Of a stretch of DNA of 64,000 bases, positions 14,218 through 58,587 are shown one piece after another. Position 1 is the stretch's first letter. Every line of letters starts with the position of its first letter. The stretch is from Antedon mediterranea (lineage: Eukaryota; Echinodermata; Crinoidea; Comatulida; Antedonidae). The notes beneath the pieces were generated by a model, which did not search any database, had not been told where the DNA came from, and was given only the letters and a program-made list of their open reading frames with translations. The stretch spans positions 24,924,432 through 24,988,431 of the forward strand of contig NC_092679.1 of NCBI RefSeq assembly GCF_964355755.1, given 5' to 3'. Both the position numbers and the translations under genes were made by a program.

Positions 14218-15095
14218 AGGACAACTTTACCGAGAACCATATTTTGACAACGTATTAGGTATGTACATATGATTTTACAACAATTGCGAGATTTACGACA
14301 TCGCCGCGCAACCTCGCCCTAGAGCCGGCCGTGTCGATGTCGTCGCCGTAAATTGTTGTGACGTCAGTGTGTGCTTAGCAAAATTTAAGAGAGTAGCTAG
14401 AAACATGACGTATGATGCTTTGGAATCATTCAAACATATCGCACTCAAAACTTTTTTTTGGTGAATAAAGACGATGATGATTGTATTTATTTATTTATTT
14501 CAACAATATTGCACTATGGTTGGTAATCCACCGGCCTAACTCTTGTATTCAAATACGATGGTGACTAAATTATAAAAGTTTATGAAGTTAGGCGTTCATA
14601 AACGGCGGACATAATTTATCAGACCGACTAGATATCTGGTTAGTAGTGTAGCTAGCCTAGGATGCTAGGCATCTATAGGCGCCCTACCTAGTACTAGTGT
14701 TATAAGTTCTTTGGTACTAGTATTAGGCATATCTAGTATTATACCATGGAGTAAATTTTTACTCCATGATTATACCAACATCAGCACAAACCGACGACTC
14801 GTCGCGTCGCGTGTGTCACCATCCACACACCACACACAAAAAGGAGGAGAGGAAAGTTTTGAGTGCGATATGGTTGAGTGATTCCACACGTCATCACATA
14901 CGTCATACTGCTGCCACACACGTAGTCAAGACCAAGGTAGATTTTGCTAAGCACACTAATCTTGACGTCACATTAATTTACGGCGACGGCGGCTGTACGG
15001 CGAGCGTACGTGCGCGGTGATATCGAAAATCTCACAATTGTTCTGAAATCATATAGAATACATTGTCAAAATATGGTTCTCGGTAAAGTTGTCCT
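14218..15095. mobile_element. TTAA-flanked inverted-repeat element (piggyBac-like MITE), copy 1
   Basis: The ends are inverted copies of AGGACAACTTTACCGAGAAC, continuing through CATATTTTGACAA, directly flanked by TTAA at 14214-14217 and 15096-15099. Inner arms are also mirrored (GCTAAGCACAC, GACGTCA, TTTACGGCGACG). No transposase frame is seen. TTAA targets are typical of piggyBac and Kolobok elements, so the superfamily is an inference. Further copies lie at 25530-26120 and from 57511. A 24-bp palindromic insertion sits inside at 14745. Confidence 0.8.
14745..14768. mobile_element. Micro-palindrome insertion 1 (24 bp, 7-bp TSD)
   Basis: Begins CATGGAGTAAA and ends TTTACTCCATG. Exact 7-bp direct repeats ATTATAC flank it (14738-14744 and 14769-14775). 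It lies in the non-coding interior of the TTAA element. Confidence 0.85.
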
Positions 15096-15524
15096 TTAAT
15101 TTTCAACACCATTTATTTGTCCAACAGTAGGGAGTTGGCGGACAGACAAAAAAAACTGAACTCGACTCCTACATTTTACACTTTCAAAATAAAAAATTTG
15201 ACAAAAAAATTTTCCACATTCATGACAGAAATATTAATTATTTCTGCACCCGCGCCCTCTGGCGGTGGTGGTTAGCGCTCTATACGTTGATGATGAGCTG
15301 AGGATCGGACCGTTTGACCCTCATGAATATGCAAATTACCTCTGCTTATGTATATAATTACCTTGAGTGTTTACTTTACTTTCCATCCTTCTTCCGGGTA
15401 CAGAGTACCTGGTACGCGGCATTATTATAATAAGTGGTGTTTTGGCCAATGCACGTTGATTTAGACAGGTAGGTGATATTAGTACTAGTAGGTACCGTGC
15501 TTTAGTTTCAGGTAAGACTAAAGC

Positions 15525-17833
15525 GGCGCTAATGCAGTTTCGTACCCACCCCTTAAAATTACTCAAAATCTTCATCCAACCTACTCACGAGTTGTCTACA
15601 ACACCCTGCAATCATAAAATTGTAAAAAATCGAACATTTTTTATTTCAAACTATTTTTAATCAATTAATACTGAGCACCCTTCGGAAATACATCGCCAGC
15701 TTAGCTTCGCGAAAATCATCGCTAGGCCTGCCGATAAAAGTACGGAGGCCTCATAGGGCATTAACTCTATTAATAGAGTAAACAGTTGCTTTCTATAGAG
15801 GGCGTAGTTATTAATGTTTAATGCACGCACCAAATTAGTCTGGGTTCCAGACGGAGTTTTTATTTGTCTTAATATTAGTTAAAAGATAAATATTTTGGCA
15901 CAGATGGCGTTTCATACGTATACTACTTGATTTTGGATACTCCGTCTGGGGAAACACGCACAAGTCACGTGGTTTGACACCAAGAATTCTTGGTGCATAC
16001 GATTATCCGGTTGACTAGTTTCAGCTGCATGCGATTGGCTACTCACTCGTACACCGTGTAAATATTCATATTTCAGAATTTTAAAGACTCAACAACTAAG
16101 ATGATGCGCATGCGCTATGTTACGTTTAGACAATGTGTACTTGGGTACATTTATGAAAGTTCTGAAGGCTAGAAATTATTTTATATGCCTAGTACTAGTA
16201 GTCTGGTCTGGTAAACATTTGATGGGATCTTTGAAACATGAAAACTCGTCTTGATATATGATAGGCTAGCTTCTCCGCAAATCAAACATTGAATGGATCA
16301 TTTATTACGCGGAGATAATTTTGATTTAATTCCCACCGAGACCCCGTCCTGTTCTGTGTGGTGGTGTAGCCCTGTTGTGTGCCGGTGGTATGTAATGTAA
16401 GCCTACTTCATTGGCGTTTTATTTGGCAGGTCATACACGCGAGTTGAGTAGGACCTACGAAAGAGGCCTAGGCCAAGGACTAAACAATTAATAAACAAAA
16501 CAACTTGGCATTACTATTTTATATTTCAACAGTCTCGATCGTACATTAAGCACTGGTAGGCCTACGTACTCGATCTCTTTCATTTTTAAACAAAATGATC
16601 ATTGGTTGATTCGAAATCCATATTTACATACCGCCCGCCCCATATAGCCAAATACGGTATGATAACCTACGTCATTCTTATCGTATGTTTGCGGTCTGCA
16701 AATCGATTTCTATACGTGTTTCACAAGTCTGTATTTTCAGAAATAAAAACAAATAAATAAAAAAAAAAGATAATATACAGACTTGGGGCAAGTCTAGCAC
16801 CAAATATAATTTTCATTATTTCCGACATTCGTTTCGTATTTTTAATAAAGAAATACTATACAATTGCTGTATTCATCATTGTGGGTGTCATGTTTTTAAT
16901 TTGTTCTTTCATTTTACTAGTATAATTTCACACAGAAAAGAAGATAAATATGGAACTGCTGACTCTTGAAGATATAAGTTTGACCAATTTTCCTCTGTTT
17001 TAGTTTATTTTACATTATGGTTTGTAGGTCAAATAAATAAATGAAATGAATAAAAAGAATTACAGTACTTCATTCCTGAGTTACATTGTTAATGTTATAA
17101 CACAATAATCAAGCTATGACAAATTAATTGTTTTAGTAATGTTATCACTAGCTGTTAGGTCTACTAGAAACGCTAATGGTTTCCCTGTTTTAAGATTTTA
17201 TAGAAGTATATTATTGTTAATTAACATTTTTTATTCACCTATGAAAGACCTCTTCAAATACATGGAAATAGGAAATGCAACAAAAACAGAAAGATATAAT
17301 TTATTGAAATGTAATGTACAGTAATACAATAATTATAATAAAAATGTTTTCCATCAATTAATTACTAGAATTTATTTTACTTCTGCTGACACTGAATACA
17401 TCATTTCATGTCTTCCATTTCTTCTTTTTTATCTTCTTTCCTGTTGTGTTTATTAAAATAAAATCAAATAAAACATTAAATAATGAAGCAACTATTCATT
17501 AACTTAAAATCCGTTTCACGAGGAACATGTAAAAAATATTTTATTATCGCCATAATATGACCATAACAGCGTCCTCTATATATCGATGCCCTATGAGGCC
17601 TCCGTACTTTCATCGGCAGGCCTAGCGCTGATTTTCGCGAAGCTAAGCTGGCGATGGATTTCTGAAGGATGCTCAATTATTAATTGATTAAAAATAGTTA
17701 TAAATAAGAAATTATCGATATTTTAACATTTTATGCTTGCTGAATGTTGTAGACAACTCGTGAGTAGGTTAGATGAAGTATTGAAACCATTTCGAGTAAT
17801 TTTAAGGGGTGGGTACGAAACTGCATTAGCGCC
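15525..17833. mobile_element. 2.3-kb inverted-repeat element with 8-bp TSD (GGCGCTA family)
   Basis: Terminal arms of about 210-240 bp are inverted copies. The outer ends are GGCGCTAATGCAGTTTCG, and the arms continue through GGTGGG, TTTTAAGGGG-type and CGCGAAGCTAAGCTGGCGAT sequence. A perfect 8-bp direct repeat ACTAAAGC flanks it (15517-15524 and 17834-17841). The interior has no transposase frame and carries another repeat (15834-16345). The 8-bp duplication suggests hAT or a similar superfamily. A second member with the same ends is at 19995-20752. Confidence 0.8.
15834..16345 (+). repeat. Dispersed repeat, copy 1 (pair of 27134-27575)
   Basis: About 400 shared bases, beginning TTAGTCTGGG, with internal inverted CCAGACGGAGT / ACTCCGTCTGG, GTCACGTGGTTTGACAC and ACTCAACAACTAAGATG, and ending near TTAATTCCCACC. 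The second copy is in the same orientation. This copy has about 110 extra bases near 16190-16290, and at 16287-16311 it shows the empty site for the micro-palindrome of the second copy. Confidence 0.8.
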
Positions 17834-18411
17834 ACTAAAGCCTAGGTAGGCCTATTATTTTTTTATTTTTTTTGCCCAGACAACATATAATATTTTCTAG
17901 GCTAATAAGGCCTCTCACTCCTAGACCTAGCAGTTACAAGTAATTTCGGTCGCGTTTACAGTTATTTGCGGTCGCGTTTTAAGTCGATCGCGTATATGGC
18001 ATGCCGATGTACGTACCTACTATGTATATTTATGCGCGACATGATTGGTACAAATGGTAGATACTAAAAAAATCTTTTGTTTTGTGCAACTAAACCACAC
18101 AATAGGCTTCCATTGATGCAACAAGGGACGGATAAATTAAATTCATCATGAATGCGATATGTTGGTGTACCCAAGGGCCAATATATCATTATTAATGTTG
18201 TGGAAAAAATATAAAATAAATATTCACTAGGGCCTATACCATATTCGAATAAACGCCCTGATGTGAATAAACGCTGTAATTTTAAAAACATGCAAAACTT
18301 ACACATATCCAAAATTTCCTCCCTGATGAAATGCTGCTTCACAGTATAGTTAAAATACAATTAAGATTTTAAAATCCATATTAAAATATGTTTTTTTTTT
18401 GCAGATAAAAA

Positions 18412-21400
18412 ATGGCATTTTATCCGACAGCAGGTCAGCAGTTCCCTATTGTGAACCCGGTAAAAAATGATTTTTTTTTCAATTTCTGCACTTATCTTTA
18501 TTTACTTTATTCATTTTATTCATTTGATATATATGTCAACAAAACATGGGAAGCAACAAGAATCATAGTTTGTGGCAATTACCATAATATATTGTCATTT
18601 TTACATTTTACTATTCTATGAAGACCTACTGTCTACAAATATGGTCTAGACATACAGACCTTTCCAAAATCAAAACGTTTTTAAAGGTTCTGTGTTTGCA
18701 GGCAGGGTTATGTTGATATAAAAATAACAATTTGAAAAACGCCATTACACAGTACATAAAAAGTCAATAGTGGGATTGTTAGTTTAAGCATTTTGGAAAA
18801 TGAAGGAAAATGTGTTTAAAAACATGTGCAAAATATTGTAAAATCAGTGCTTAACCACGATTGATTACATTACAACCAAATACTACACATTAATGGCAAA
18901 TATTATATTTCATAAATTTCCCTGATTAACACACTTGAAAATGCTTACTTGAAAATAAATATTTCAAAGAATTGCTGATTTATGTAGAGCCTTTGAATAT
19001 TTAATCCCATTCCCTGCAATGTGTACACTAGTATTTATCATTTTATAGCCTGTTCCATATATTGGCAACATTCAAGGACAAATGGTTCCCAACAAAATGA
19101 TATTCATCCAAGGAGTTGTACCTCATGGAGCAGATAGGTAGGTACACTGTATTTCTTTTATTGTTTATTATCACGTAATATTTGGGCATTTTCAGCTCAC
19201 CATGTAGCTGTAATTTACTGGTTTTACCATCAACTCCAAACTAAAATAAGAACACTTTTAATGTGCATCCAGTTCATATTGGTCTATTAAAGACAATTTG
19301 TGATGTTTTGTAATAATACGTACAGATACGAATTTTGAAATTGAAATAGTAGATCTAAATTTTTTAGTGCCTCAAAACATGGTATAAGTATACCACATAT
19401 ACCATCATTATTCTGTAATAACCCATTCGAATAAAGGTTTTACTTTTATTTGATAGATTTCATATAAACTTGCAGTGTGGTACAAGTACCAGTCCACGTG
19501 CAGATATTGCCATGCATTTTAACCCAAGATTTCAAGCCCAAAAAGTTGTGCGTAACTCCTTAGTTCGCCAAGGCTGGGGCAAGGAAGAAAATCATGGAAG
19601 CTATTTTCCATTTGCTCATGGACAACACTTTCAAGTTATTATCTTATGTGAGCCACACCAATTTAAGGTAATGTATCTTTATACAGTAGTATATCGTATA
19701 GATATTCAGGGCTCGATTTATCTTTTTCATGTTGCTAGCCCACTGGGCTAGTTCACTGTAGATTTCACTAGCCCATACATTATTTTACTAGCCCACTCTT
19801 ATTATCGCACCGTGATAGCAGGGCCGCCATATAAATGAATTCAGGCATTTTGTACAATAGAGGGCGCACTAATCTAAACGCTCGAGAATTGCTACACATT
19901 TACATACAAACTGTATTAAACTATTATTGCATGAAAAATTACACAAAATTGTATTTCTTTATTGTTCACATCCCGGTTCACATAAAAATTAACTGGCGCT
20001 ACTGCAGTTTCACACCACACCGTTATATCTTCGATTTCTCACCTAAATTTTTCTTTTTCACACTCACAACATAATATTATGTAACATGTTTATACGATTC
20101 GACCACTTACGAAGTAATTTTTTTTAAATAACAATACTTTTCAAAACATTTTAAACAATACTGAACTCGATGTCAACACACTGCGAAATGTTCGCCATCT
20201 TATATTTATCACTTAATTGCCAGAATGTATGCTTCATTTTCCCCAAAAAATGTAGAAACTATAGAGGCCAGTGTAATAAAATCCGATTACACATATATAG
20301 GCCTAGGCCTATTTAGTTTTGAAAGGCAAGAAATATTTTCAGCTGGCGAAAGAGAGGTTTAATTAATATTTCATTATTAATATTAGTATTATTATTCATG
20401 TTAATAGGTCCTATCAATGTTTTATGTAGACTCATATCGTCGCCGTTTTGATATGTACAGTGAGCTAGCTGGTTCTTTATAAAAACCACTCTTTGCAGTT
20501 TAAAAATAAAAACAGAAAATAAAACATGCATTGATTTATGGCAATTTTCTGATTCTAAAATGGCCACAGTTCGATCGAGGAAATAGAGCTGTTTTGAAAG
20601 GCATTTTTTATTGTGATAAAGGTAAATATAACGGTGGCTAAATCATGGAAACATGTTACATAATGGCCCAAAATTGTATGATGTGGGTGTGAGAAAAAAA
20701 TTAAGCGATAAATCGAAGATTTAACAGTGTGGTGCGAAACTGCAGTAGCGCCAATTAACTTTGCGTTGCGACGCATAGTCTATTTCATGCTCAACATATT
20801 CACAGAATCGATTTATTGAGGTCTTTTTGTTGTTGGGCTTCAACCTAGCCAAGAAAACTAATTAGATTCTGTCTACCTTAGGCTAGAGGCCTAGGCCTAG
20901 AGCCTATTATTTTAGTACTACTAAAATAATAGGCTCTAGGGAGTATTAGTAGGGTAGCTAGGATAGACCTACCTACTAGATCGCATTGGAGCACCTGGCC
21001 TACTGTACCAAAATGGTACTATAGGCCTAGCTAGGCCTAGGTAGTATCTAGCTAGGCCTAGCTGCTGCTGAGCAGCCATCACGATGCCAAACGATGGCTT
21101 TTGATTCTATCTAGGCCTCCTACGCATATTATAAAATATGGCCTCCATGGCCTACCTACGGGATATGACCGATTGGGCCGCCGACAAGTTGAGCCGCCGG
21201 TGATTTCTATCAGGTTTCTATGAAACGCCCAGTGCATGCGTCTTTTACGACATTTCGCGTAGTGATTAGGATGGTGTCCTAGTACATAAGTTCATGGTCT
21301 TGGTTTATTGTGTCATGAAAATAAATAATATATAGGCTTAATTACATATTACAATTAACAACACAGCAAAGGAAAGTAGTAATATTTAATTGTTTTTAAT

Positions 21401-24224
21401 CTTTCGAGGAAAAAATTCAGTGCACTCATAATTGTTCTCGCGTGTAGGCCTACCACGTAAAGTCACGTTGTCTCTCAGGACTAATTAATGGGGTATTAAC
21501 ATTCTTCGAATGAGGTTAAATAAATATTATTTTTTATTTACTAATCTTTTAATATCATATTTTATTGAATTTTACAATGTTAATACACAAAATATTTTAC
21601 TAAAAAACGTGATTTTATGTAATTATTTTACCGAAAAATGGAGTAGGCCTAGTTCATACAACTGCCGACTGAGAGGCAACATGTTTACGTCATTTTTGGC
21701 TAAAAACGATCACTTTCGGTGATGTTTTTTAATATTTTGGAATCTACAAGCCAGATTTTCATAATTATTAATTATAATATTTAATAATATATATACTAAA
21801 AACCATGATATATACATGGAGCTATAATTATAATCTAATTTTATAGCTCCATGATATATAAACTTTTGAATGTACATCGTTATCTCTAATATAAATAGAA
21901 CGAGCACCGGCGAAAGTTAGCATTTGGCGTTCCATAGAAAATAACGTTTTTCTGGCGGCGGCTCAACTTGTCGGCGGCTCAACTTGGCCTAATCCCTACC
22001 TACAGGGATAGAGCCAGCCACCCGGCCCTACAAAATATCCCTAGCTTTGATCTGTGATGACAACCAGGCCTGATGACAAGACTAGACAAATTATTTTTAA
22101 CATTGGCAAAATTCTACTACATTTGGCCAATCACAGTTCGTTATTTATGGTCATATTTTTGTGACATGTTTGACCTGATAATGAAGCTCCGCCTACTTCA
22201 CAATAACCTGGGTGACAAAAACATAAATGGCCAATCATAATTCGGGAAATTTGTTTGATTATGAGAGGCTCCGCCTACATCATCACTTGTTATGGCCACA
22301 GCAGCAGCGCGCCAGTGGTTTTTTTTTTATGATGTTGCCAAGACATATATGTCTTTTATGCTGGAGTTATTTTTATGAGGTCATTTCGTCCCAATTTCGA
22401 GTTCCCACAACCTACTAGCCATCCGGGCTTAAAGGAAGATACTTTAGGTAGCCCGGAGCTGTTTTTACTAGCCATTGTACGCCGGGCTAGCACTAAATCG
22501 AGCCCTGATATTGTTAGCTGCTTTTTATTACAGTATATGTATCTATCAATTTTGGAGAAGAAACATAAAGCCCATACTAAAATTCATCCACATTAGTAGT
22601 GGATTTATACCTACATGATTGTGTAGGTGGTACTGAATAAAATAGTATTATGCTATGTCATGATAACTATTAATTGAAATAATCTAATACTGGTATTATA
22701 TAAAAGTTAGTGTATGATTTTCAGGTTGCAGTGAATGGACAGCATTTTGTTGAATACAAACACAGAATTGAACAACTAAACCGTATCAATACACTTGCTG
22801 TTGATGGCAAAGTACAGCTTTATTCAATCAGATACAGTGGTGGTGAGCCGCAGGTAAGCATACAAATGTTTATCACTATGTTTACATATCAAACTTGCTT
22901 TATTGTGATAAGCAACTATATAAAGAAGCCAAAGTAAACAGTTTCAATTTTAATCAAGCAAACTAATGTATCTGTGTTTTTTTAGGTTGCAGGAGGACCA
23001 ATTTTTAATCCTGTAAGTTTCTCAAAAATATTGATAAGTAATTCATATGTAATGATGATAATTTATATAATAATAACTCATCAGGGAAGAAGGCATCATA
23101 GATTAAAGTATGTTTTGCAATATACACTACACTAAGGAATAACCTATAGTGCTATCGTACATGGCATACAACTCCACCAGATTAGTGTATGATTTTGACC
23201 CATGTACCTACATTTTCGAATCTCATCCAACGATTCTTCTTCAGCCCTAATAGGCTACCTTAATGCTTTTAATTATACATTATATAGCTACTACATTAAT
23301 ACTTGCCTGTATTTTAATTTTGTACCTTCTTTCCTCTACTAGCCGGTACCATTTACTGGAGGTATCCAAGGAGCAATGACACCAGGTCGCCTTGTGTTTG
23401 TTTCTGGCATTGTGAAACCTGGTGCAGATAGGTTAGTTATAGCATTCTGGAAAACTGAAAATAACTTTTAAATCTGAAATATTGTGTCTACTTTGATCAA
23501 ATCAATAAAAAAAATTAGATGCCTATTTAAACTTCATATTCGTAACAAATCAGACACATAGGACCTTTTAAAGCCTAGAATTCTAAGGCTTTGTATGAAT
23601 TTGTCAAAGCCGAAATGCAGATTAAAGCTACAGTTCCACAAAAAATATCACTGAAGATGCCATTTCAATTTGAGTAACAATTATTAAAATATTTAAATTA
23701 AATGTGTTTTATTTATTAGGTTCCATATAAACTTGCAGTGTGGTCCAGAGGGTAGAGGCCCTCGTCCAAATATTGCTCTTCATTTCAACCCTCGTTTTAA
23801 AGCTCGTACAATTGTTGTCAATGCCCTTTCAAACCAGAAGTGGGGAGGAGAAGAAAAACATGCTCAATTCTTTCCATTTATTGAAAATGGATTCTTTGAG
23901 GTATTTCTTTATTTATGTTTTAAGTTAGAGTTTTATAGTATTTCTATTTATTCTATTCATCCATTGCAATTTTGGCTGTGACACTTTTAGTAAAGGGAAG
24001 TTATTTCTGTTTGTTTTATTTATGTTTTTGTTATGCTCCTCATTTAGTATAATGTAATAAGAGTTTAATTTTTTTAGGTGATCATCTTATGCCAGAATGA
24101 TGCTTTTCGTGTAGCTGTGAATGGTCAGCATCTCTTGGAATTTAAGCATAGAATTCCATTCCACACTGTGAACACTTTGATGGTAGCTGGAGCTGTTACT
24201 GTCACTCAAATCAGATTCCAGTAA
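18412..24224 (+). CDS. Tandem-repeat galectin, two carbohydrate-recognition domains
   Basis: Eight coding exons join in frame at GT-AG sites: 18412-18459, 19049-19137, 19457-19667, 22725-22853, 22986-23012, 23343-23431, 23720-23900 and 24078-24224. They give 306 residues, close to galectin-4/8/9 length. Galectins bind beta-galactosides and leave the cell without a signal peptide; none is seen here. CRD1 (about 15-155) has HFNPR (66-70), N79, W86 and E89. CRD2 (about 168-306) has HFNPR (219-223), N232, W239 and E242. The usual sugar-contacting arginine after the W-G-x-E motif is Asn91 in CRD1 and Lys244 in CRD2, so specificity may differ. The linker is one tiny exon (22986-23012). The acceptor just before the ATG implies an upstream non-coding exon. 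The domains share intron phases, consistent with internal duplication. Confidence 0.95.
19995..20752. mobile_element. 758-bp GGCGCTA-family element with 8-bp TSD
   Basis: The ends are inverted copies of GGCGCTACTGCAGTTTC, continuing through CACCACAC, ATCTTCGATTT and TATGTAACATGTTT. Perfect 8-bp repeats AATTAACT flank it (19987-19994 and 20753-20760). It shares its terminal motif with 15525-17833. Non-coding. Confidence 0.8.
20897..20939. repeat. Near-perfect hairpin, about 20-bp stem
   Basis: GAGCCTATTATTTTAGTA is followed, after one base, by its reverse complement, set in AGGCCTAG-rich DNA. It lacks the CA...TG ends and the 7-bp repeat of the micro-palindromes. With almost no loop it is unlikely to be a microRNA precursor. 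Confidence 0.7.
21160..21995. mobile_element. 836-bp inverted-repeat element with 8-bp TSD
   Basis: GCCGCCGACAAGTTGAGCC near the left end (21177-21200) is mirrored near the right end (21953-21990), where the GGCTCAACTTG unit occurs twice. Perfect 8-bp repeats CTACCTAC flank it (21152-21159 and 21996-22003). It carries a micro-palindrome at 21815 and no gene. Confidence 0.75.
21815..21853. mobile_element. Micro-palindrome insertion 2 (39 bp, 7-bp TSD)
   Basis: Starts CATGGAGCTATAA and ends TTATAGCTCCATG, with a short AT-rich loop. Flanked by exact ATATATA repeats (21808-21814 and 21854-21860). The duplication is low in complexity, so alone it is weaker evidence than the other six. Confidence 0.75.
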
Positions 24225-27133: not shown

Positions 27134-27575
27134 TTAGTCTGGGCTCCAGACGGAGTTTTTTCTTAATATTAGTAAAAATATAAATATTTTTGCACATATG
27201 GCGTTTCATACGTGTATTACTTGAGTTTGGATACTCCGTCTGGGGAAACACGCAAAAGTCACGTGGTTTGACACAAAGAATTCTTGGTGCATAGATTATC
27301 CGGTTGATTAGTTTCAGCTGCATGCGATTGGCTACTCACTCGTACACTGTTTTAATATTCATATTTCAGAATTTCAAAGACTCAACAACTAAGATGGTAC
27401 GCATGCGCTATGTTACGTTTAGACAATGTGTACTTTGGGTACATTGATGAAAGTTTCTGAAGGCTAGAAAGGATTTTATATGGATCATTTAATCAGGGAG
27501 ATGTAATTTACATCTCCCTGATTTAATATTACGCGGAGATAATTTGATTTAATTCCCACCCAGACCTGTCCTGGT
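27134..27575 (+). repeat. Dispersed repeat, copy 2 (pair of 15834-16345)
   Basis: Same orientation and block order as copy 1, missing about 110 bases and carrying a micro-palindrome at 27494. Upstream (27099-27124), CAGACTGTCCGCCATGCGG is mirrored at 29193-29216. Confidence 0.8.
27494..27520. mobile_element. Micro-palindrome insertion 3 (27 bp, 7-bp TSD, empty site known)
   Basis: CAGGGAGATGTAA, one base, then its exact reverse complement. Flanked by ATTTAAT repeats (27487-27493 and 27521-27527). The paralogous sequence at 16287-16311 reads continuously through the same position without the insert. Confidence 0.9.
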
Positions 27576-29772: not shown

Positions 29773-32700
29773 ATGGAAGAAGATAGAATTACAGCAGTTT
29801 TAGCAGATTGTTATTTTGAATCAATACCAACAGGTGAGAGATATTAACCTTCCCCACATTAGGCCTACGTTACAACATAGAGATATTAATATCTCTATGG
29901 TTACAATAATCAAATTGGGGAGCAATTTTTTTTTTTTTTTTAACCATATTTAATGAGGGTGATCCATCCACCTATTGCTGATCATTAGGGACCCTCAGAG
30001 GTTCACAAGACAAACATATACACAAGATGCTCTACATAAACAAAGTCTTATTACAAGTCTTTGGGAGTGGAGTGATTTGGTCCTTACATGTGACGGGACT
30101 TGAACCCAGGACCCTTAGAGTGGTAGCCAAGCATCATAACCACCAAGACACAACTTTAATTGATTTAAAATATTACAACTCCTTGATTTAAACATCACTA
30201 ATTATATCAACAGAACTTGTTTGTTACATTTTGTTTATTCCAAGTTAAGAGTTTTATTAATTATTTTTCCACACAGTTCCTGTTCATGTTGCTGAGGTTA
30301 AAGACTGTAAAAACATTTCTGATTTATTGAGGTAATGTTTTGTGTTTTTATTTAATTTGTTTAATTCTCGGGTGCGACATGAACCCACGACCTCCAGATC
30401 ACACACTAGCCTGACATTCATACTTCTAGACCACCAAGCTTGCGCTGATGACTAGGGGTTAGATTTGAGCAGGTAAACATTGGGTTGGCTACTGCTAAAT
30501 ATGTCTTGCTGTACTCTTCAAAAACAGATTTAAATTTGTTTGAATAATGATAAAATATAATGCATTTATTGTAATGAGACATTTCGTCATAAAACGGTTG
30601 GAAGTGAAAGGTTATTGACCTGTAACTTTTATCTATGTAGCATTTCCATATCTCATTGTATGACCATCTGCATAATCATAATTTTTTAATTTTTTTCTGA
30701 ATGGAAAGGGGATTCCTCTCACATAGCCATAAAGCTGTACTGCTTGTGACATCACATTGCACTCCTTACCTCTCAATAATAGAGGGCACTGTTGACCTAA
30801 AAAACACCACCATCAGTTTTTCACGCTGCTGCTCTAGCCCGCTACGTCCCATTAGGACTACTCAATCAGAAGCTAAAGCAAGCAGCAGTTATAGTTCTAA
30901 GGACGACAGTTTTGCGAAAATGGAAATTCCACTATAATTTATTGATTCCAGCTGCTACAGTAGACCCAAAAAAGTCTGGGAAAAGAGTATATTAGGACAA
31001 GTCATGCTAAAATTACAAATCCCAAGCATTTTTGGTATATTCACTGTCAGATATTCATTGAATTATTATCAAAACAGTCCATAAAAGTTTGTGTTTGTAA
31101 TAGGATACTTCACACTTGAAATATCTAGGGTGATGAAGTGACCCCCATACTTGACCTTAGCAATAAAATTAACTAAAGTGACTAAAATTGAGTATTCACT
31201 TCTGTAACAAAAAAATAATATTTATTCACATATAAAAAGAGAAAAGAAACCCCAAACCATTGTCTGACAGACAATTTAAGTATTTGTTGCTTTAAATTAC
31301 ATTTTTTTTCAGGTAAAATAACTATTATGTGACAATAAAATGACACATTCAAAAACATTTGAAATAAAAAATATTTTTCAATAAGCGAGCAGCGTTTTTT
31401 GTGAGAAATATTTCTTGTTAAACTTCAGATGTTGCCATGTATGTTGACATAAACATTGTTTACTTGCGTATCATTTAAACGTAGAGAAACCATTTTAGAA
31501 TTACTTGTGATACACCAGAAAGAAAGACTTGTGATGTCCATGCCCCAGCTTGTGGAGGAGATTTGATCTTTTGTACAATGCGTCATTTAAATTGTTATAT
31601 CGACGTGTGCTAGCAAAGTTTAACAGATTCATCCCTCTCCTAAATCACTAAAATGTACAATATACTGTCATATTTTAACATTCTATATTTGTACAATATT
31701 GTTGAAGTTATACAATTATGTATACACTTCAGACAGAGTGGGATATTGATGCTCTTGTTTTAAAATTATGGCCAAGTGTATCAACATCAAATTTTCTTTT
31801 TATTTAGAAACCTTGAACAGTTGTGTCCATTAGATGAATTAAAACACCTAAAAAGAATAAAATGTTTTAAGAAAGAAGATGGAACCGGTATGTATTATGT
31901 TTGTTTAAACTACCTCACGCGCAGTATCACTCTGTGCAATCTAATGCACTTGTCAATTGTATGACCCACTATACGACCCCCGGGAGAGGTGCGTCATGGG
32001 TGCGTCATTTACAAATAATTACTGACGCAGGGGTGCGTCAAAAAACCTAGATGGTACGTCACATCAATGAAGAAGGTGTGTCAATGTCCGTCACTTTACC
32101 ACCCACCATATCATAAACAACATGGTCACAGTGCGTCAAAATGGGTGCGTCATGGTCACCTAAAGGTAAGTCACCTTTTTGACGCACGGGTGCGTCATGG
32201 TATTCAAAAGTATGACGCACATCGGACAAATGACGCACCTCTCCCGGGGGTCGTATAGTGGGCCATACAATTGACAAGTGCATAACTACATCACATGCAG
32301 CATCACTCTGTGCAAGCTAACTACATCACATGCAACATCACTCAGTGCAAGATAAGTACATCACATGCAGTATCACTCAGTGCAAGATAACTACATCACA
32401 CGCAGCATCACTCAGTGCAAGCTAACTACCTCACACGCAGCATCATTCAGTGCAAGCTAACTACCTCACACGCAGCATCACTCAGTGCAAGCTAACTACA
32501 TCACATGCAGCATCACTCTGTGCAAGCTAACTACATCACATGCAGCATCACTCAGTGCAAGCTAACTACCTCACATGCAGCATCACTCAGTGCAAGCTAA
32601 CTACATCACATGCAGCATCACTCAGTGCAAGCTAACTACATCACATGCAGCATCACTCAGTGCAAGCTAACTACATCACATGCAGTATCACTCTGTGCAA

Positions 32701-36792: not shown

Positions 36793-36921
36793 TAATTGTT
36801 TGTCTATTTCTTTATTAATACTTAGTTTTATTACAGCTTCTAACTTATGATGCAGAAGATATTTTTTTTTGTCTAACTAGTTCACTTCTTCATTTTGTGT
36901 TTTGCCATATTTTTATTGAAA

Positions 36922-36943
36922 CATAGAGATATTTATCTCTATG
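36922..36943. mobile_element. Micro-palindrome insertion 5 (22 bp, 7-bp TSD)
   Basis: Starts CATAGAGATA and ends TATCTCTATG, flanked by exact ATTGAAA repeats (36915-36921 and 36944-36950). It lies 130 bp after the ADAT3 stop codon. Its arms closely match insertion 4. Confidence 0.9.
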
Positions 36944-37044
36944 ATTGAAACAACTGTAGATAACAAATGTTTATAACATTAGTCATCAAAGTATTATTTG
37001 TGAAATTCATACATCTAATGAATAGACTGACACATTGTGTGATG

Positions 37045-45200: not shown

Positions 45201-48200
45201 TTTGTGAGAAAATGGCAGATTGTTCCTGGGAGTCACTTGGTGGGATTATACTAGGGTAACTCCTTAGTTGTCCAGTAGAAGTTAGAGTAGGACCACTGGT
45301 CCCGTTTACTCAGCCCTCATCTTTAAAATTTGAGTGTAACTCATTTACGAATTTTAAAATATAGTGAAATTTGATACTATATTTGTGAGAAAACGGCGGA
45401 TTGTTCCTGAGAGTCACTTGGTGGGATTATACTAGGGTGCCTCCTTAGTCGTCCAGTATAAGTTAGAGTGGGACCACTGGTCCCGTTTACTCAGCCCTCA
45501 TCTTTTAAATTTGAGTGTAACTCATTTACGATTTTAAAAATATAGTGAAATTAGATACTGTATTTGTGAGAAAACGGCGGATTGTTCCAGGGAGTCACAT
45601 GGTGGGATTATACTAGGGTGCCTCCTTAGTCGTCCAGTATAAGTTAGAGTGGGACCACTGGTCCCGTTTACTCAGCCCTCATCTTTTAAATTTGAGTGTA
45701 ACTCATTTACGATTTTAAAAATATAGTGAAATTAGATACTGTATTTGTGAGAAAACGGCGGATTGTTCCAGGGAGTCACTTGGTGGGATTATACTAAGGT
45801 ACGTCCTTAGTCGTCCAGTAAAAGTTAGAGTGCGACCACTGGTTCCGTTTACTCAGCCCTCATCTTTTAAATTTGAGTGTAACTCAATTACGATAAAAAA
45901 ATTTAAAATATAGTGAAAATTGATACTGTATTTGTGAGAAAATGGTGGGTTGTTCCTGGGAGTCACTTGGTGGGATTATACTAGGGTACCTCATTAGTTG
46001 TCCAGTAGAAGTTAGAGTGGGACCACTGGTCTCGTTTATTCAGCCCTCATCTTTAACGTTTGAGTGTAACTCAATTACGATTAATATTTTAAAATATAGT
46101 GAAATTTGATACTGTATTTGTGAGAAAATGGCGGATTGTTCCCGGGAGTCACTTGGTGGGATTATACTAGGGTACCTCCTTAGTTGTCCAGTTTAAGTTA
46201 GAGTGGTACCACTGGTCCCGTTTACTCAGCCCTTATCTTTAAAATTTGAGTGTAACTCAATTACGATTAATATTTTAAAATATAGTGAAATTTGATACTG
46301 TATTTGTGAGAAAATGGCGGATTGTTCCTGGCAGTCACTTGGTGGGATTACACTAAGGTACCCCCTTAGTCGTCCAGTATAAGTTAGAGTGGGACCACTG
46401 GTTCCGTTTATTAAAATTTGAGTGTAACTCATTTACGTTTTTAAAATATAGTAAAATTTTAAACTGTATTTGTGAGAAAACGGCGGATTGTTCGTGAGAG
46501 TCACTTGGTGGGATTATACTAGGGTACCTCCTTAGTCGTACAGTAGAAGTTAGAGTGGGACCACTGGTACCGTTTACTCAGCCCTCATCTTTTAAATTTG
46601 AGTGTAACTCATTTACGATTTAAAAAATATAGTGAAATTTGATACTGTATTTGTGAGAAAACGGCGGATTGTTCCTGAGAGTCACTTGGTGGGATTATAC
46701 TAGGGTACCCCCTTAGTCGTCCAGTATAAGTTAGAGTGGGTCCACTGGTCCCGTTTACTCAGCCCTCATCTTTCAAATTTGAGTGTAACTCATTTACGAT
46801 TTTTAAAATATAGTGAAATTTGATACTGTATTTGTGAGAAAACGGCGGATTGTTCCTGAGAGTCACTTGGTGCGATTATACTAGGGTACCCCCTTAGTCG
46901 TCCAGTATAAATAAGAGTGGAACCACTGGTGCCGTTTACTCAGCCCTCATCTTTTAAATTTGAGTGTAACTCATTTACGATTTTTAAAATATAGGGAAAT
47001 TTGATACTGTATTTGTGAGAAAACGGCGGATTGTTCCTGAGAGTCACTTGGTGGGATTATACTAGGGTGCCACCTTAGTCGTCCAGCTCAGTATAAGATA
47101 GAGTGGGACCACTGGTCCCGTTTACTCAGCCCTCATCTTTTAAATTTGAGTGTAACTCATTTACGATTTAAAAAATATAGTGAAATTAGATACTGTATTT
47201 GTGAGAAAACGGCGGAATGTTCCTGGGAGTCACATGGTGGGATTATACTAAGGTACGTCCTTAGTCGTCCAGTATAAGTTAGAGTGCGACCAATGCTTTC
47301 GTTTACTCAGCCCTCATCTTTTAAATTTGAGTGTAACTCAATTACGATAAAAAAAATTTAAAATATAGTGAAAATTGATACTGTATTTGTGAGAAAATGG
47401 CGGATTGTTCCTGGGAGTCACTTGGTGGGATTATACTAGGGTACCTCCTTAGTTGTCCAGTAGAAGTTAGAGTGGGACCACTGGTCCCGTTTACTCAGCC
47501 CTCATCTTTAACGTTTGAGTGTAACTCAATTACGATTAATATTTTAAGATATAGTGAAATTTGATACTGTATTTGTGAGAAAATGGCGGATTGTTCACCG
47601 GGAGTCACTTGGTGGGATTATACTAGGGTACCTCCTTAGTTGTCCAGTTTAAGTTAGAGTGGGACCACTGGTCCCGTTTACTCAGCCCTTATCTTTAAAA
47701 TTTGAGTGTAACTCAATTACGATTAATATTTTAAAATATAGTGAAATTTGATACTGTATTTGTGAGAAAATGGCGGATTGTTCCTGGCAGTCACTAGGTG
47801 GGATTATACTAGGGTACCCCCTTAGTCGTCCAGTATAAGTTAGAGTGGGACCACTGCTTTCGTTTACTCAGCCCTCATCTTTAAAATTTGAGTGTAACTC
47901 ATTTACGATTTTTAAAAAATAGTTATATTTGAAACTGTATTTGTGAGAAAACGGCGGATTGTTCCTGAGAGTCACTTGGTGGGATTATACTAGGGTACCT
48001 CCTTAGTCATACAGTATAAGTTAGAGTGAGACCACTGGTACCGTTTACTCAGCCCTCATCTTTTAAATTTGAGTGTAACTCAATTACGATAAAAATTTTA
48101 AAATAGGCCCTATAGTGAAAATTGATACTGTATTTGTGAGAAAATGGCGGATTGTTTCTGGGAGTCACTTGGTGGGATTATACTAGGGTACCTTCCTAGT

Positions 48201-48668
48201 TGTCCAGTATAAGTTACAGTGGGACCACTGGTCCCGTTTACTCAGCCCTCATCTTTAACGTTTGAGTGTAACTCAATTACAATTTTTTAAATATAGTTAA
48301 ATTTGAAACTGTATTTGTGAGAAAATGACGGATTGTTCTTGGGAGTCACTTGGTGGGATTATACTAGGGTACCTCCTTAGTCGTCCAGTATAAGTTAGAG
48401 TGCGACCACTGGTCCCGTTTACTCAGCCCTCATCTTTTAAATTTGAGTGTAACTCATTTACGATTTTAAAAATATAGTGAAATTTGATACTGTCTTTGTT
48501 AGAAAACGGCGGATTGTTCCTGGGAGTCACTTTGTGGGATTATACTAGGGTACCTCCTTAGTCGTCCAGTATAAGTTAGAGTGCGACCACTGGTCCCGTT
48601 TACTCAGCCCTCATCTTTTAAATTTGAGTGTAACTCAATTACAATTTTTAAAATACAGTTAAATTTGA
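42285..48668 (+). repeat. 182-bp satellite, left arm, about 35 units
   Basis: Each unit contains GGCGGATTGTTCCTGG, CACTTGGTGGGATTATACTA, CTTAGTCGTCCAGTATAAGT and GACCACTGGTCCCGTTTACT. A distinctive pair of variant units (TCCAGTTTAAGTTAGAGTGG, then CCTGGCAGTCAC) recurs at about 44657, 46110 and 47573, pointing to an eight-unit higher-order period of about 1.46 kb. Confidence 0.95.
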
Positions 48669-51580
48669 AATTTCACTATATTTTAAAAATCGTAAATGAG
48701 TTACCCTCAAATTTAAAAGATGAGGGCTGAGTAAACGGGACCAGTGGTCGCACTCTAACTTATACTGGACGACTAAGGAGGTACCCTAGAATAATCCCAC
48801 CAAGTGATTCCCAGGAACAATCCGCCATTTTCTCACAAATACAGTTTCAAATTTAACTATTTAAAAAAAATTGTAATTGAGTTACACTCAAATTTTAAAG
48901 ATGAGGGCTGAGTAAACGGGACCAGTGGTCCCACTCTATCTTATACTGGATGACTAAAGAGGTACCCTAGTATAATCCCACCAAGTGAATCTCAGGAACA
49001 ATCCGCCGTTTTCTCACAAATACAGTATCAAATTTCACTATATTTTAAAAATCGTAAATGAGTTACACTCACATTTTAAAGATGAGGGCTGAGTAAACGG
49101 AACCAGTGGTCCCACTCTAACTTATACTGGACGACTAAGGGTGTACCCTAGTATAATCCCACCAAGTGACTCAGGAACAATCCGCCGTTTTCTTACAAAT
49201 ACAGTTTCAAATTTCACTATTTTTTAAAAATCGTAAATGAGTTACACTCAAATTTTAAAAATGAGGGATGAGTAAACGGGACCAGTGGTCCCACTCTAAC
49301 TTATACTGGACGACTAAGTGGGTACCCAAGTATAATCCCACCAAGTGACTCCCAGGAACAATCCGCCATTTTCTCACAAATACCGTATCAAATTTCACTA
49401 TATTTTTAAAATCGTAAATGAGTTACACTCAAATTTTAAAGATGAGGGCTGAGTAAACCGGACCAGTGGTCCCACTCTAACTTATACTGGACGACTAAGG
49501 GGGTACCCTAGTATAATCCCACCAAGTGACTCCCAGGAACAATCCGCCATTTTCTCACAAATACAGTCTCAAACTTCACTATATTTTTTTTAATCGTAAA
49601 TGAGTTACACTCAAATTTAAAAGATGAGGGCTGAGTAAACGGTACCAGTGGTCCCATTCTAATTTATATTGGACGACTACGGAAGTACCTTAGTATAATC
49701 CCACCAAGTGACTCCCAGGAACAATCCGCCATTTTCTCACAAATACAGTTTCAAATTTAACTATATTTTAAAAATTGTAATTGAGTTACACTCAAATTTT
49801 AAAGATGAGGGCTGAGTAAACAGGACCAGTGGTTCCACTCTAACTTATACAGGATGACTAAAGAGGGGTACCCTAGTATAATCCCACCAAGTGACTCTCT
49901 CAGGAACAATCCGCCGTTTTCTCACAAATACAGTATCAAATTTCACTATATTTTAAAAATCGTAAATGAGTTACACTCAAATTTTAAATATGAAGGCTGA
50001 GTAAACGGGACCAGTGGTCCCACTCTAACTTATACTGGACGACTAAGGGGGTACCCTAGTATAATCCCACCAAGTGGCTCCCAGGAATAATCCGCCATTT
50101 TCTCACAAATACAGTATCAAATTTCACTATATTTTAAAATATTAATCGTAATTGAGTTACACTCAAATTTTAAAGATAAGGGCTGAGTAAACGGGACCAG
50201 TGGTCCCACTCTAACTTAAACTGGACCACTAAGGAGGTACTCTAGTATAATCCCACCAAGTGACTCTCGGGAACAATCAGCCATTTTCTCACAAATACAG
50301 TATCAAATTTCACTATATTTTAAAATATTAATCGTAATTGAGTTACACTCAAACGTTAAAGATGAGGGCTGAGTAAACGGGACCAGTGGTCCCACTCTAA
50401 CTTCTACTGGACAACTAAGGAGGTACCCTAGTATAATCCCACCAAGTGACTCCCAGGAAAAATCCGCCATTTTCTCACAAATACAGTATCAATTTTCACT
50501 ATATTTTAAAATTTTTTACCGTAATTGAGTTACACTCAAATTTAAAAGATGAGGGCTGAGTAAACGGAACCAGTGGTCGCACTTTAACTTATACTGGACG
50601 ACTAAGGACGTACCTTAGTATAATCCCACCATGTGACTCCCAGGAACAATCCGCCGTTTTCTCACAAATACAGTATCTAATTTCACTATATTTTTAAAAT
50701 CGTAAATGAGTTACACTCAAATTTAAAAGATGAGGGCTGAGTAAACGGGACCAGTGGTCCCACTCTAGCTTATACTGGACGACTAAAGAGGCACCCTAGT
50801 ATAATCCCACAAAGTGACTCTCAGGAACAATCCGCCGTTTTCTCACAAATACAGTATCAAATTTCCCTATATTTTAAAAATCGTAAATGAGTTACACTCA
50901 AATTTAAAAGATGAGGGCTGAGTAAACGGGACCAGTGGTCCAACTCTAACTTATACTGGACGACTAAGGGGGTACCCTAGTATAATCACACCAAGTGACT
51001 CCCAGGAACAATCCGCCATTTTCTCACAAATACAGTATCAAATTTCACTATATTTTTTAAATCGTAAATGAGTTACACTCAAATTTAAAAGATGAGGGCT
51101 GAGTAAACGGTACCAGTGGTCGATCCCACTTTAACTTATACTGTACGAATAAGGAGGTACCCTAGTATAATCCCACCAAGTGACTCCCAGGAACAATCCG
51201 CCATTTTCTCTCACCAATACAGTTTCAAATTTAACTATATTTTAAAAATTGTAATTGATTTACACTCAAATTTTAAAGATGAGGGCTGAGTAAACGGGAC
51301 CAGTGGTCGCACTCTAACTTTTACTGGACGACTAAGGGGGTACCCTAGTATAATCCCACCAAGTGACTTCCAGGAACAATCCGCCATTTTCTCACAAATA
51401 CAGTTTCAAATTTAACTATATTTTAAAAATCGTGATTGAGTTACACTCAAATTTTAAAGATGAGGGCTGAGTAAACGGGACCAGTGGTCCCACTCTAACT
51501 TATACTGGACGACTAAGGGGGTACCCTAGTATAATCCCACCAAGTGAATCCCAGGAACAATCCGCCGTTTTTCTCACAAA
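48669..51580 (-). repeat. 182-bp satellite, right arm, about 16 inverted units
   Basis: The same unit in reverse orientation (ACCAGTGGTCCCACTCTAAC, ATAATCCCACCAAGTGACTC, AACAATCCGCCATTTTCTCA). The arm is less than half as long as the left one, so a folded element would leave a large unpaired or slipped region. Confidence 0.95.
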
Positions 51581-51912
51581 TATTTAATTCCTAATACCAT
51601 AAAAGCCATAAGTAACAATGAAAATGTAAAGAATGCACAAACGGCGTTTCATAGTTATTGTTGGCTGGAAAAAATAAAAGTGGGCTGGCTTATTGTTGGC
51701 TGGCTTATTGTTGGCTAGCTTGACACAAGCGTTGTTACAGGGAAAACCACGTTACGTCGCGTAATCGGATCGTACGAGGCCGAGTGAAGGGTGTGACGTG
51801 TATACGACGTAGGCTCTCTCTCTCTAGGCAAAGCGTTATCGTCCGTTTGTTGACTTCTGGTGTGATACGTGGATTGTATGCTGTATCGGATCAATTGTTA
51901 TTAAAAATAATA

Positions 51913-52036: not shown

Positions 52037-52353
52037 GTATCCTTTTTGCATGATGAGGCCTCTCTATCATCCTCTATCTAGCTAGGTTAGGTGGGCCTAA
52101 ACTAGGCTAGATCTGCTAGCTAGGGATCTAATTCTAAGCCTACTTTACTACTTACTACTGCTATACTAGCTAGCTAGGCTAGATCAACTTTTTTAGATTG
52201 AAATGCATATGAATTATGTGAATTTATTATTTAATATTAAAATGTAAACTAGCCTGCTAGCTAGGCTAGGGCAGGGCTATTTTGTATTACTAATACTTAA
52301 TACTGATAGTAGTAGGCCTAGGCTAAGAGTATAGATAGGCCTATATAATAATA

Positions 52354-55569: not shown

Positions 55570-57506
55570 ACTTACATACGTTACATAACACACAAGTTTG
55601 ACTGAGAGGTACAGCACACAAAACCAGGCCTACAAACAATTCAATAATCCAGAACAACTTTTTATACAAATATACAAATTAGAATATTATACTCTTTATT
55701 TCCCAAGAAAATGAAATGCTTTTTATAGCAGTTACCTATAAATCTAAAGGCAAATTAGTGAAAAAATGACAATGCTGTGGGTATCCATATAAATGTAATG
55801 CAATATCAAAATTCATACGTAAACATTCAATATCTGTTGATATAGAACGTGCAGTACACCATGTATGTAGTTCTGTCTTGTTAGAACTAAAGCTGTATGT
55901 AATGTAGTGTACTGCAAACTTTATATCAACATTCAATATCTGTAAACATTGTAATTTTAAATTACCATATGCACTACATACATTATTATTATTCAATGGT
56001 CAGAGAATCTATATTCCACCATAAGCTTACAGATAGAAAATGTATTATGGTAACTCCAGAACAAAATGTATTAGTATTATGGTAACTCCAGTTACGAAAT
56101 GTATTTCGTAACTTGTTGCAACTCTTTACATTTGGTGCTTTACAGCAAATACAGATAACAACTCTTAAGTATATTTACTTAAAAGATAAGAACAGATACT
56201 ATGCAAGTCTGTGTGTAATTAACTGTAATTTACAATGTTTGTACAATGTTTATATTGTTGTGTTGTTTGAAAACCATAAAGTATTATGATTTTTGAACTA
56301 TATTTCTGGAATCAAATAATGTGTACACTGTGCTACTGTATACTACAGTGCAATACAGTGGGGATTATAATCTACCATGCAGAATATATCCATAAATGTT
56401 TAGTTATTGTAAAAACTATACAATATGTTTTATTTGATGGAAAAATGAAAATGATAATGTTGTTAATGAATTTTCATCATAATGAATTTTATTCAAAACG
56501 TAAAATAAACTGATCCATGTTTTTATTTTGTATTTTTGATTATATTACAATACTAGTACATACTTATTTTTAGTGAATTGATAAAGGTTTCATTTATGTT
56601 ATGGTACAAAAGGCAAATAGTCCTTCAAGTTAATCCCTAACCTGTTAGTAGTGTACTGCATCCTTTCAATAAATAAAAGGCAAATAGTCCCTCAATTTAA
56701 TCCCTAACCTGTTAGTAGTTTAATGCAAAAACATCCTATTACAATAAATCCCTCAGTTTTAATTACATTTGTAACCACACAACTACTACAGTAATACATT
56801 TGACATATTCAAACAAAGTTGTTTGCAACACCATGGAGAAATAAGTTAGGATTTCTCCATGGCAACACTAATTTGGCGGAGGCAATATAATAATTATCTG
56901 TGACTATTATGTGTTTAGTAAAAATTTCCAAAAACATGGAAATGTGTGGATGTTTTAATTACATTATACTATGGGAATTAATGTAATGATTATTATTTTA
57001 ATGTTTATTGTTAATTTACATTGTTTTATACAAAGTTTATTATTTAAGCTACTTAAGCAAACTTAAATCTAATTACAATACCTTAATTATTATTATTTAC
57101 AGTACAGTTATGTACTTACAATACCTTAATTATTATTATTTATATTGAATCATTATGTACATACTTATTTTTTACTCCATAATTGAAGTATTTATAATGC
57201 TTAAGTTAAGTATAAACATCTACAGCTCTTGCCATCTTTTATTTTTCTTAATATACATTAAATGTTTTTTTTCAGTTATTTTGTACCATTATTTGGGTTG
57301 TGAGACTGAGCACATTAAATATAATAAAGGTGTGTAAAATTAAAAACAAACAGTTTTTTTAATCTTCCTTAATGAACAAAAAATTTCTGCACAGATTTGA
57401 TGAAACTTCACAGATAAAGATGAGCCATATTGGTTCTTCAAAAGACCTTCCTTCAACTTTGGAACTATAACATAGGTGAACACATAATTTCTAGGAATAA
57501 GGAATA
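55570..57506. other. AT-rich stretch with small hairpins
   Basis: Holds a doubled TATTATGGTAACTCCAG (56045 and 56077), a hairpin GTTACGAAAT / ATTTCGTAAC near 56092, doubled AAAAGGCAAATAGTCC (56607 and 56676) and micro-palindrome 6. No gene recognised. Confidence 0.45.
56832..56861. mobile_element. Micro-palindrome insertion 6 (30 bp, 7-bp TSD)
   Basis: Starts CATGGAGAAAT, then an 8-base loop, ends ATTTCTCCATG. Flanked by exact GCAACAC repeats (56825-56831 and 56862-56868), a non-repetitive target. Confidence 0.92.
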
Positions 57507-57510
57507 TTAA

Positions 57511-57790
57511 AGGATAACTTAACTGAGAACCATATTTTAACAACGCATTGGGGATGTACATATGATTTCAGAACAATCTCAAGATTTACGATATCGCCCC
57601 GCGCGCTCGCCGTCGCCGTACATTGCTGTGACGTCACGTGTGCTTAGCAAAATGTACCTCATGAGTTTTCACGATTGTTAACATACAAGAGATATGTACT
57701 GTCACTTCTGCTAGACACCTATATTTCTTCAGTAAAATGTATGCATGCCATGATAGTGTCAAAATCTGAAACCAACGCAGCGTAGCCCTA
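57511..57790. mobile_element. TTAA-type element, copy 3 (left part)
   Basis: TTAA (57507-57510) is followed by AGGATAACTTAACTGAGAAC, then ATGTACATATGATTT, GCCGTCGCCGTACATTG and GACGTCACGTGTGCTTAGCA, matching copy 1. The right end was not found. Confidence 0.65.
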
Positions 57791-57935
57791 GCTGCGCCTT
57801 CTATGGAAGCTGTTGTTTCGATCATCTACAACTGCTACGTGTTTTCGCTGACCGGGGATTTCCCCCCTTTTTTTTTAACGCGCACTTATTCTCATGGATA
57901 AAAAGGGATATGACTTACGATCGTTATGGCCAAAT

Positions 57936-58011
57936 CACGGAGGTATAAATTTATAATAGGCCTATTATTATTTTATTTATAAATTTATATTTTTAATTTT
58001 ATACCTCCATG
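57936..58011. mobile_element. Micro-palindrome insertion 7 (76 bp, 7-bp TSD)
   Basis: Starts CACGGAGGTATAAAT and ends ATTTTATACCTCCATG, with a longer AT-rich middle that is itself partly paired (TATAAATTTATA-type). Flanked by exact GCCAAAT repeats (57929-57935 and 58012-58018). One arm mismatch (CAC against CAT). Confidence 0.85.
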
Positions 58012-58587
58012 GCCAAATTGTGACATATTCGATTTACCAAATGAAGCGTTACGTATACATTCCTGCAGAGCGAGACGATAGAACATGTGCTGTGCATATG
58101 CCCGGTCTCGTCATATTCCCCCTACTTTATGATTCAGTGTCAGGAATATCAGTATAGCAGCGGTGGCGCCAGGATCTTCCAGACGCGAGGGCTACATTCC
58201 CCGACGAGGGGGCTATGCAAGCGAAGCGAGCATCACTAGGCTGGGGGACAGGGGGCCACCAAGGGCCCCCGGAACCAACGCGTTCTAGCGTCATTTGAGG
58301 CCATTTTAATCAGATTTACGGTAGCCACTTTTTCCATTTTTTATAATGCATAAATAAAATACTGCGTGCAAAAACACGATGCGCGATGATGACTGTTTCA
58401 ATCCATATTTTTCAATTTAAAAAATAAAAGTTCAAAATGTGTCTATATTTATCGGGTAAATTATAGCTTAGAAAAATTAATATACGCGAACGTAAAACGT
58501 AGGAGCCGAAGAGGTGTGCCTATATTGTTTATCGCAAAGGCGTATGCTGGTTGCTGTCTCGGGGTGCACAAATTGTAAATGCGTGCT

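Follow-up and report, generated by a model that had tools for sequence, protein, structure and literature searches.

Short palindromes between 7-bp direct repeats in the crinoid Antedon mediterranea as probable excision footprints of P-superfamily transposons

INTRODUCTION

The P transposase of Drosophila cuts with a 17-nucleotide (nt) stagger and produces 17-nt noncomplementary 3' tails (PMC7776569, PMC2895639). Table 1 of PMC2895639 lists many P excision products that retain both 8-base-pair (bp) target duplications, with the 17-nt tails joined at AT/TA or with filler, and other products that have lost most of the tails at long microhomologies. Two further members of the P superfamily in Drosophila, 1360 and Galileo, make 7-bp duplications, with three 8-bp cases in Galileo (PMC3276498, PMC2775673, PMC4168063). 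What is said here of these and the other cited papers holds for the parts of their texts that were used. Here we analyze a 64,000-nt stretch of the genome of the crinoid Antedon mediterranea (the window; positions 24,924,432 to 24,988,431 of the forward strand of contig NC_092679.1, assembly GCF_964355755.1), in which seven short palindromic inserts each lie between two copies of a 7-bp sequence.

An earlier, sequence-only reading of this DNA suggested two possible origins for the inserts, a transposon making 7-bp duplications of which they would be end-only remnants, or a hairpin-forming integration reaction that produced them, and knew of no described family with this form. We consider it probable (roughly 0.86) that these micro-palindromes are excision footprints, or scars, of P-superfamily transposons that were repaired by end joining. 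The first of the two earlier proposals fits this conclusion, since P-superfamily transposons with such ends and 7-bp duplications are present in the genome; we found no support for hairpin-forming integration. As to mechanism, the supposed lack of precedent does not hold: sequenced P excision products from Drosophila share this anatomy (PMC2895639), and 1360 and Galileo duplicate 7 bp (PMC3276498, PMC2775673, PMC4168063).

RESULTS

Seven inserts with 7-bp direct repeats

The coordinates, lengths, arms, and perfect 7-bp direct repeats reported for all seven inserts were verified. We refer to them as footprints 1 to 7; none carries a strand. Footprint 1 (14738..14775) is a 24-bp palindrome, CATGGAGTAAA-TT-TTTACTCCATG, at 14745-14768 between ATTATAC repeats (14738-14744 and 14769-14775), with similar stretches elsewhere in the genome. 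The 39-bp insert of footprint 2 (21808..21860; insert 21815-21853), CATGGAGCTATAA...TTATAGCTCCATG, lies between ATATATA repeats, which are AT-only and thus weak evidence alone; to its right, positions 21854-21930 resemble by eye a repeat at loci L028, L031, and L032. Footprint 3 (27487..27527; insert 27494-27520) is a 27-bp palindrome, CAGGGAGATGTAA-T-TTACATCTCCCTG, flanked by ATTTAAT, and an identical 27-mer occurs at C1:5472833. Footprint 4 (29869..29906; insert 29876-29899; 24 bp, CATAGAGATATTAATATCTCTATG) is flanked by GTTACAA and is compatible with two 13-nt ends joined with a 2-nt overlap; an identical 24-mer at C1:16495352 (L059) has no clear duplication there. Footprint 5 (36915..36950; insert 36922-36943) is 22 bp long, CATAGAGATATTTATCTCTATG, between ATTGAAA repeats, and footprint 6 (56825..56868; insert 56832-56861) is 30 bp long, CATGGAGAAAT...ATTTCTCCATG, between GCAACAC repeats. 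A relative of footprint 6 at L066 is fuller, at 35 bp, with the 7-bp duplication GTATGAC. The longest insert, footprint 7 (57929..58018; insert 57936-58011), comprises 76 bp, CACGGAGGTATAAA...TTTTATACCTCCATG, with GGTATA-type ends, a long AT-rich middle, and GCCAAAT repeats. It is the sole window scar with the end type of the P element L024 described below, and its 7-bp arms carry the only mismatch (C/T) among the seven inserts.

Chance palindromes or low-complexity artefacts might be suspected in an AT-rich window (35% guanine plus cytosine), and the repeats at 21808 are AT-only. Of 13 CANNGAG...CTCNNTG pairs spanning at most 219 bp in the window, the seven inserts have an exact 7-bp repeat and none of the other six does. 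When the length of the flanking repeat was varied (exact 7-bp arms starting with CA, inserts up to 80 bp), six matches were obtained at length 7 and zero or one at each of the lengths 3 to 6 and 8 to 11; the arm mismatch places footprint 7 outside these six. In 500 first-order Markov copies of the window there were no matches in total, compared to seven in the real window. Together with the genome-wide controls below, these copies lead us to reject chance and low complexity as the origin, an explanation to which we give next to no weight.

Micro-palindromes are abundant genome-wide

Across the 354,431,138 bases of 18 contigs, we searched for exact arms separated by 3 to 33 bp, with the reversed, noncomplementary pattern as the control. 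The scan proposed in the sequence-only reading, run for three arm types, revealed a large excess: 2,499 micro-palindromes versus 13 for CATGGAG, 785 versus 48 for CATAGAG, and 1,252 versus 3 for CAGGGAG. The window is rich in these types, with 6 observed and 0.82 expected per 64 kilobases (kb) (Poisson P = 2e-4, one window). Eight 10-kb stretches picked by position contained three micro-inserts, two of them flanked by perfect repeats and the third by repeats with two mismatches.

Some scars have been copied within other repeats. One 38-mer scar resides in a repeat (the L035 repeat) with 40 matches among those listed, and several CTGAGAC scars share a common flank. At L016 (300-780), about 11 copies of a 36-bp palindrome are spaced by the 7-bp sequence GTCCAGG, giving a 43-bp unit (36 + 7), and the central GA/TC occurs in both orientations; this array is a scar turned small satellite.

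P-superfamily elements and a parent for one end type

A search of the genome for PF21787, the P-element RNase H domain, yielded 35 matches. Sixteen of these loci were examined for ends, which could be delimited in six, and all six have 7-bp duplications: L001 (CGGACAC), L002 (AGCTAGC), and L003 (TATAAAC), which form one family; L024 (GATACCG); and L025 (GTTTCAG) and L027 (ATAACGT), which form another. L001, L002, and L003 are 5.55 kb long, L001 being ∼99.4 to 99.5% like the other two, and L001 has perfect 32-bp inverted repeats. In L001, L024, L025, and L027, the inverted repeat stops at the duplication and does not run past it.

L024 is the parent family for the GGTATA-type end. Over its 6,324 bp it has perfect 32-bp inverted repeats, CATGGAGGTATAAAAATAGAAGGAGAGAGCTC, which start with CATGGAGGTATAAAAAT, the end of many listed micro-palindromes. 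Both L024 and L001 are predicted to encode a P-type RNase H-fold transposase with the guanosine triphosphate-binding insertion. An open reading frame (ORF) of L024 matches PF21787 (4.8e-24) and the Drosophila P transposase structure 6P5A (6e-05); the only other Pfam match is a subthreshold zf-AD, and a second ORF has none. L001 matches PF21787, PF21788, and 6P5A (1.5e-14). Pfam reported no N-terminal THAP domain in the L024 and L001 ORFs searched, which may lack an exon.

The ends of L004, L005, L021, L022, L023, L026, L117, L118, and L119 could not be delimited; in L022, a matching pair of only 10 bp was not accepted. L116 was rejected as a seventh delimited element, its inverted repeat continuing beyond the supposed duplication. 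This P-domain locus (L116 3319-8793) lies within long imperfect inverted repeats, its true ends were not found, and it may represent a P-type element whose terminal repeats are long, as in Galileo.

Micro-palindromes stop within the inverted repeats

For the L024 type, a pattern requiring 13 nt per arm gave 151 micro-palindromes, of which the 50 listed plus-strand places were analyzed. None of their 100 ends retains more than 21 nt of the 32-nt repeat; the most frequent lengths are 15 and 18 nt, the first of which partly reflects a related end variant that lacks one A. The 151-scar pattern is unable to show two full 32-bp arms, and a separate whole-genome search, which asked for 25 nt or more of the repeat and allowed up to 2 mismatches, identified 9 ends, versus the 151 micro-palindromes with 13-bp perfect arms. 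Two of the nine are L024's own ends, and five more were examined. Four of these five lie at loci resembling internal L024 sequence, with second ends outside the stretch examined. The fifth, L084, spans 111 bp between GTCAAAT repeats and combines 105 nt from one L024-type end with 10 nt from the other, with a 4-nt overlap; it is no more than suggestive of excision at the site of a full element.

The limits for other end types are similar. For CTGAGAC, the maximum among 44 ends is 17 nt out of a repeat of 32 nt (22 distinct sequences, 50 places listed); many of these ends match the L001 repeat for 8 to 10 nt only and may belong to other end variants. In the CAAAGATC type, one of two scars examined keeps 18 nt of a repeat that is perfect for 23. 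An excision footprint is expected to keep no more than about 17 nt per inverted repeat. The limits in these types, which have a parent, agree with this expectation: 17 (CTGAGAC), 18 (CAAAGATC), and 21 (L024 type), slightly above 17 in two types.

These limits weigh against standard P-family miniature inverted-repeat transposable elements (MITEs) that later lost their middle, for example by cruciform instability, with no transposase cut. Perfect palindromes are unstable, and L084 can be read as an internally deleted form, both of which fit such a history. Random loss is not expected to give a limit of 17 to 21 nt, and no listed L024-type end falls between 22 and 32 nt. Fifteen loci chosen for carrying the CATAGAG 17-mer point the same way: an exact duplication within 150 bp is present in nine (three being one repeat), and no longer CATAGAG element was delimited among the 15, though six have no such duplication (L006, L008, L012, L014, L018, and L019; at L008 the partner end was not seen). 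We regard internal deletion as improbable.

Joints are varied, with some recurrent forms

Of the L024-type forms listed, the 38-mer found in one repeat is commonest, at 8 places. A 34-mer follows at 7 places, of which one other repeat accounts for 3, and reads as two 18-nt ends with a TA overlap. Among CATAGAG scars, joints that contain no filler show longer overlaps than random joins of the same 17-mer do (mean, 2.1 versus 1.1 nt; P = 0.02; 10 distinct sequences), a modest microhomology signal. Three scars (L007, L011, and L017) are lopsided, with one arm of at most 6 nt and intact duplications, a shape that is easier to reconcile with trimming of a single tail than with insertion by a transposase requiring two ends.

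Alternatively, the 18- to 46-bp palindromes could be mobile themselves, as extreme MITEs inserted by a P transposase with a 7-bp duplication. Identical 36-mers occur at seven places with unrelated flanks, five with perfect duplications, and the 34-mers occupy four places outside one shared repeat. Copy number is also high relative to longer ends, and L047 has an additional 31-bp CAGGGAG palindrome plus GTCAAAC that is absent from the sister repeat copies L028, L031, and L032. However, the ends cease at 17 to 21 nt of longer repeats, each end type shows many different joints, and the lopsided scars have one arm of at most 6 nt and an intact duplication. Binding by P transposase also involves internal sites outside its 31-bp repeats (PMC7776569), and such sites are absent from the inserts. 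Nor do the inserts show the uniform internal sequence and size of MITEs: among the places listed, each end type has many lengths and centers, with some recurring forms such as the 36-mer. We therefore find it unlikely that the micro-palindromes are micro-transposons as a class. It is equally doubtful that some recurrent forms, chiefly the 36-bp 17+2+17 CATAGAG palindrome, were seeded by scars and then re-mobilized as units by P transposase; if so, they would be among the smallest DNA transposons.

Target duplications and target motif

An excision footprint is expected to retain both target duplications. This was the case for all seven window inserts, for 25 of 40 loci elsewhere with perfect repeats, and for 14 of 20 loci from other P families. 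The 40 loci were chosen, not randomly, from the micro-palindrome lists; besides the 25 perfect 7-bp duplications, 10 had one mismatch, two had 8-bp duplications by inspection (L044 and L054), and three had no clear duplication (L046, L051, and L059), L046 being a scar with two different ends. Four of the 25 (L028, L031, L032, and L047) are copies of one repeat, in which scars of differing end types are stacked at one GTCAAAC target, and 7 of the 10 one-mismatch loci belong to the 38-mer repeat.

For the target motif, 53 scar sites were used after collapsing by 5+5 flanking bases, with a few stacked or repeat-borne sites remaining. Position 2 is T and position 6 is A at 79% of sites each, the outermost positions are G/C at 51%, and a purine immediately precedes the target at 68%. 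The resulting consensus, RGTNNNACY, has a GTNNNAC core and derives from scars, not elements. Published P-superfamily targets are GTTNAAC for 1360, GTCCGGAC for P, and GTANTAC (GTAGTAC, GTATTAC) for Galileo (PMC3276498, PMC2775673, PMC4168063).

Other P families have micro-palindromes of their own

Should P elements in general be the source of the scars, micro-palindromes would also be expected for P families whose ends differ. Two further families, with CTGAGAC and CAAAGAT ends, bear this prediction out: CTGAGACA gave 82 versus 0 in the control, and CAAAGAT gave 506 versus 95. Among 20 chosen CTGAGAC- and CAAAGAT-type loci, 14 had perfect 7-bp duplications (four sharing one flank and two another), L097 had one mismatch, and five had two or more. 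The CANNGAG arm rule of the sequence-only reading is thus true of the seven window inserts and is not universal; given related micro-palindromes starting with CTGAGAC or CAAAGAT, CANNGAG is the signature of some families only.

Other features of the window

A 45-bp near-perfect palindrome with 22-nt arms and a 1-nt loop lies at 20896-20940, outside the CANNGAG set. A large block of inverted and tandem repeats with 505-nt arms, 91% complementary, occupies 48111-49172, and tandem arrays with a 62-bp unit and with a repeated ORF motif are found at 6650-6952 and 33732-34672, respectively. On the minus strand, two ORFs at 11146-13622 (297 and 524 amino acids) look by eye like a non-long-terminal-repeat retrotransposon polyprotein with reverse transcriptase.

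DISCUSSION

Taking these data together, we propose that a P-superfamily cut-and-paste element inserts at a GTNNNAC-like site and duplicates 7 bp, as the structure of the delimited elements and scars shows. The transposase would then excise the element with a long stagger, cutting at the outer edge on one strand and ∼17 to 20 nt inside on the other, and 3' tails of inverted-repeat sequence would remain on both flanks. To judge from the shapes of the junctions, the host would join the two tails at short microhomologies or with filler bases. Because the tails have the same sequence in opposite orientation, the product would be a short palindrome between two target duplications, and the arms would differ from scar to scar through the activity of several P families with distinct ends. 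We infer the stagger and the tails from the point in the repeat at which the scars end and from the 17-nt stagger already known for the Drosophila enzyme.

Several observations weigh against this proposal. No excision was observed, and we found no site at which one copy holds a full element and another a scar: 14 further copies of the L035 repeat among the 40 matches listed, and all four copies of the L009 repeat, carry the micro-insert or a worn form, and no empty or occupied copy was seen. No parent was found for the CATAGAG, CAGGGAG, CATGGAGTAAA, CATGGAGCTATAA, and CATGGAGAAATAAG types, which leaves six of the seven window scars with no identified parent. Only 25 of the 40 chosen loci have perfect 7-bp duplications, and the genome counts are inflated by scars copied within other repeats and by the L016 array. 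At the joints, most L024-type scars do not show pure microhomology but contain filler or match a related end variant, and some ends retain 18 to 21 nt instead of 17. For the 36-mer (17+2+17, CATAGAG) shared by seven places with unrelated flanks, five of them with perfect duplications, independent repair suffices only if one joint is strongly favored, and its central GA lacks an explanation. GT...AC targets also occur outside the P superfamily, as in the 8-bp GTNCGNAC of hobo (hAT). Finally, excision by zebrafish THAP9, a P relative, in fly cells produced larger flanking deletions (PMC10983969).

If excision and end joining are the origin, the scars record past P activity after the elements have been lost: the number of jumps, the families, the landing sites, and host joining of long 3' tails. 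Element counts alone would underestimate past transposition, given that the L024 type has 151 scars versus 9 longer ends, two of them L024's own. The scars would also supply a large number of natural junctions made by end joining and, for these P transposases, a stagger estimate of 17 to 21 nt. In other genomes, short palindromes flanked by 7-bp repeats may likewise escape annotation. The mechanism and laboratory P excision scars are already known; the unusual part is the thousands of natural palindromes with few bodies found. Judged by titles and the starts of abstracts, with subscription journals outside the scope, no report of genome-wide natural P footprints was found, which does not prove absence; the parts used of PMC8230255 and PMC2872659 contained nothing decisive.

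MITEs resemble the micro-palindromes in being short, palindromic, duplication-flanked, and of high copy number. In contrast to MITEs, the inserts are mostly shorter than twice the parent's 32-bp repeat, have many centers, and include lopsided forms. 1360 and Galileo share with them the 7-bp duplications and a GTNNNAC-type consensus, and the occasional 8-bp duplications of Galileo compare with L044 and L054. However, 1360 and Galileo are known from elements, not scars, and the inverted repeats of Galileo are very long relative to the 32 bp of L024 and L001. In structure, the micro-palindromes resemble the excision products of the Drosophila melanogaster P element, in which both duplications are kept and the terminal-repeat tails, of up to 17 nt, stand head to head as short palindromes, joined at a 2-nt microhomology or with filler. 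Those products have 8-bp duplications and come from one engineered element, whereas in A. mediterranea the duplications are 7 bp, several families are involved, some ends reach 18 to 21 nt, and the scars are many natural fossils.

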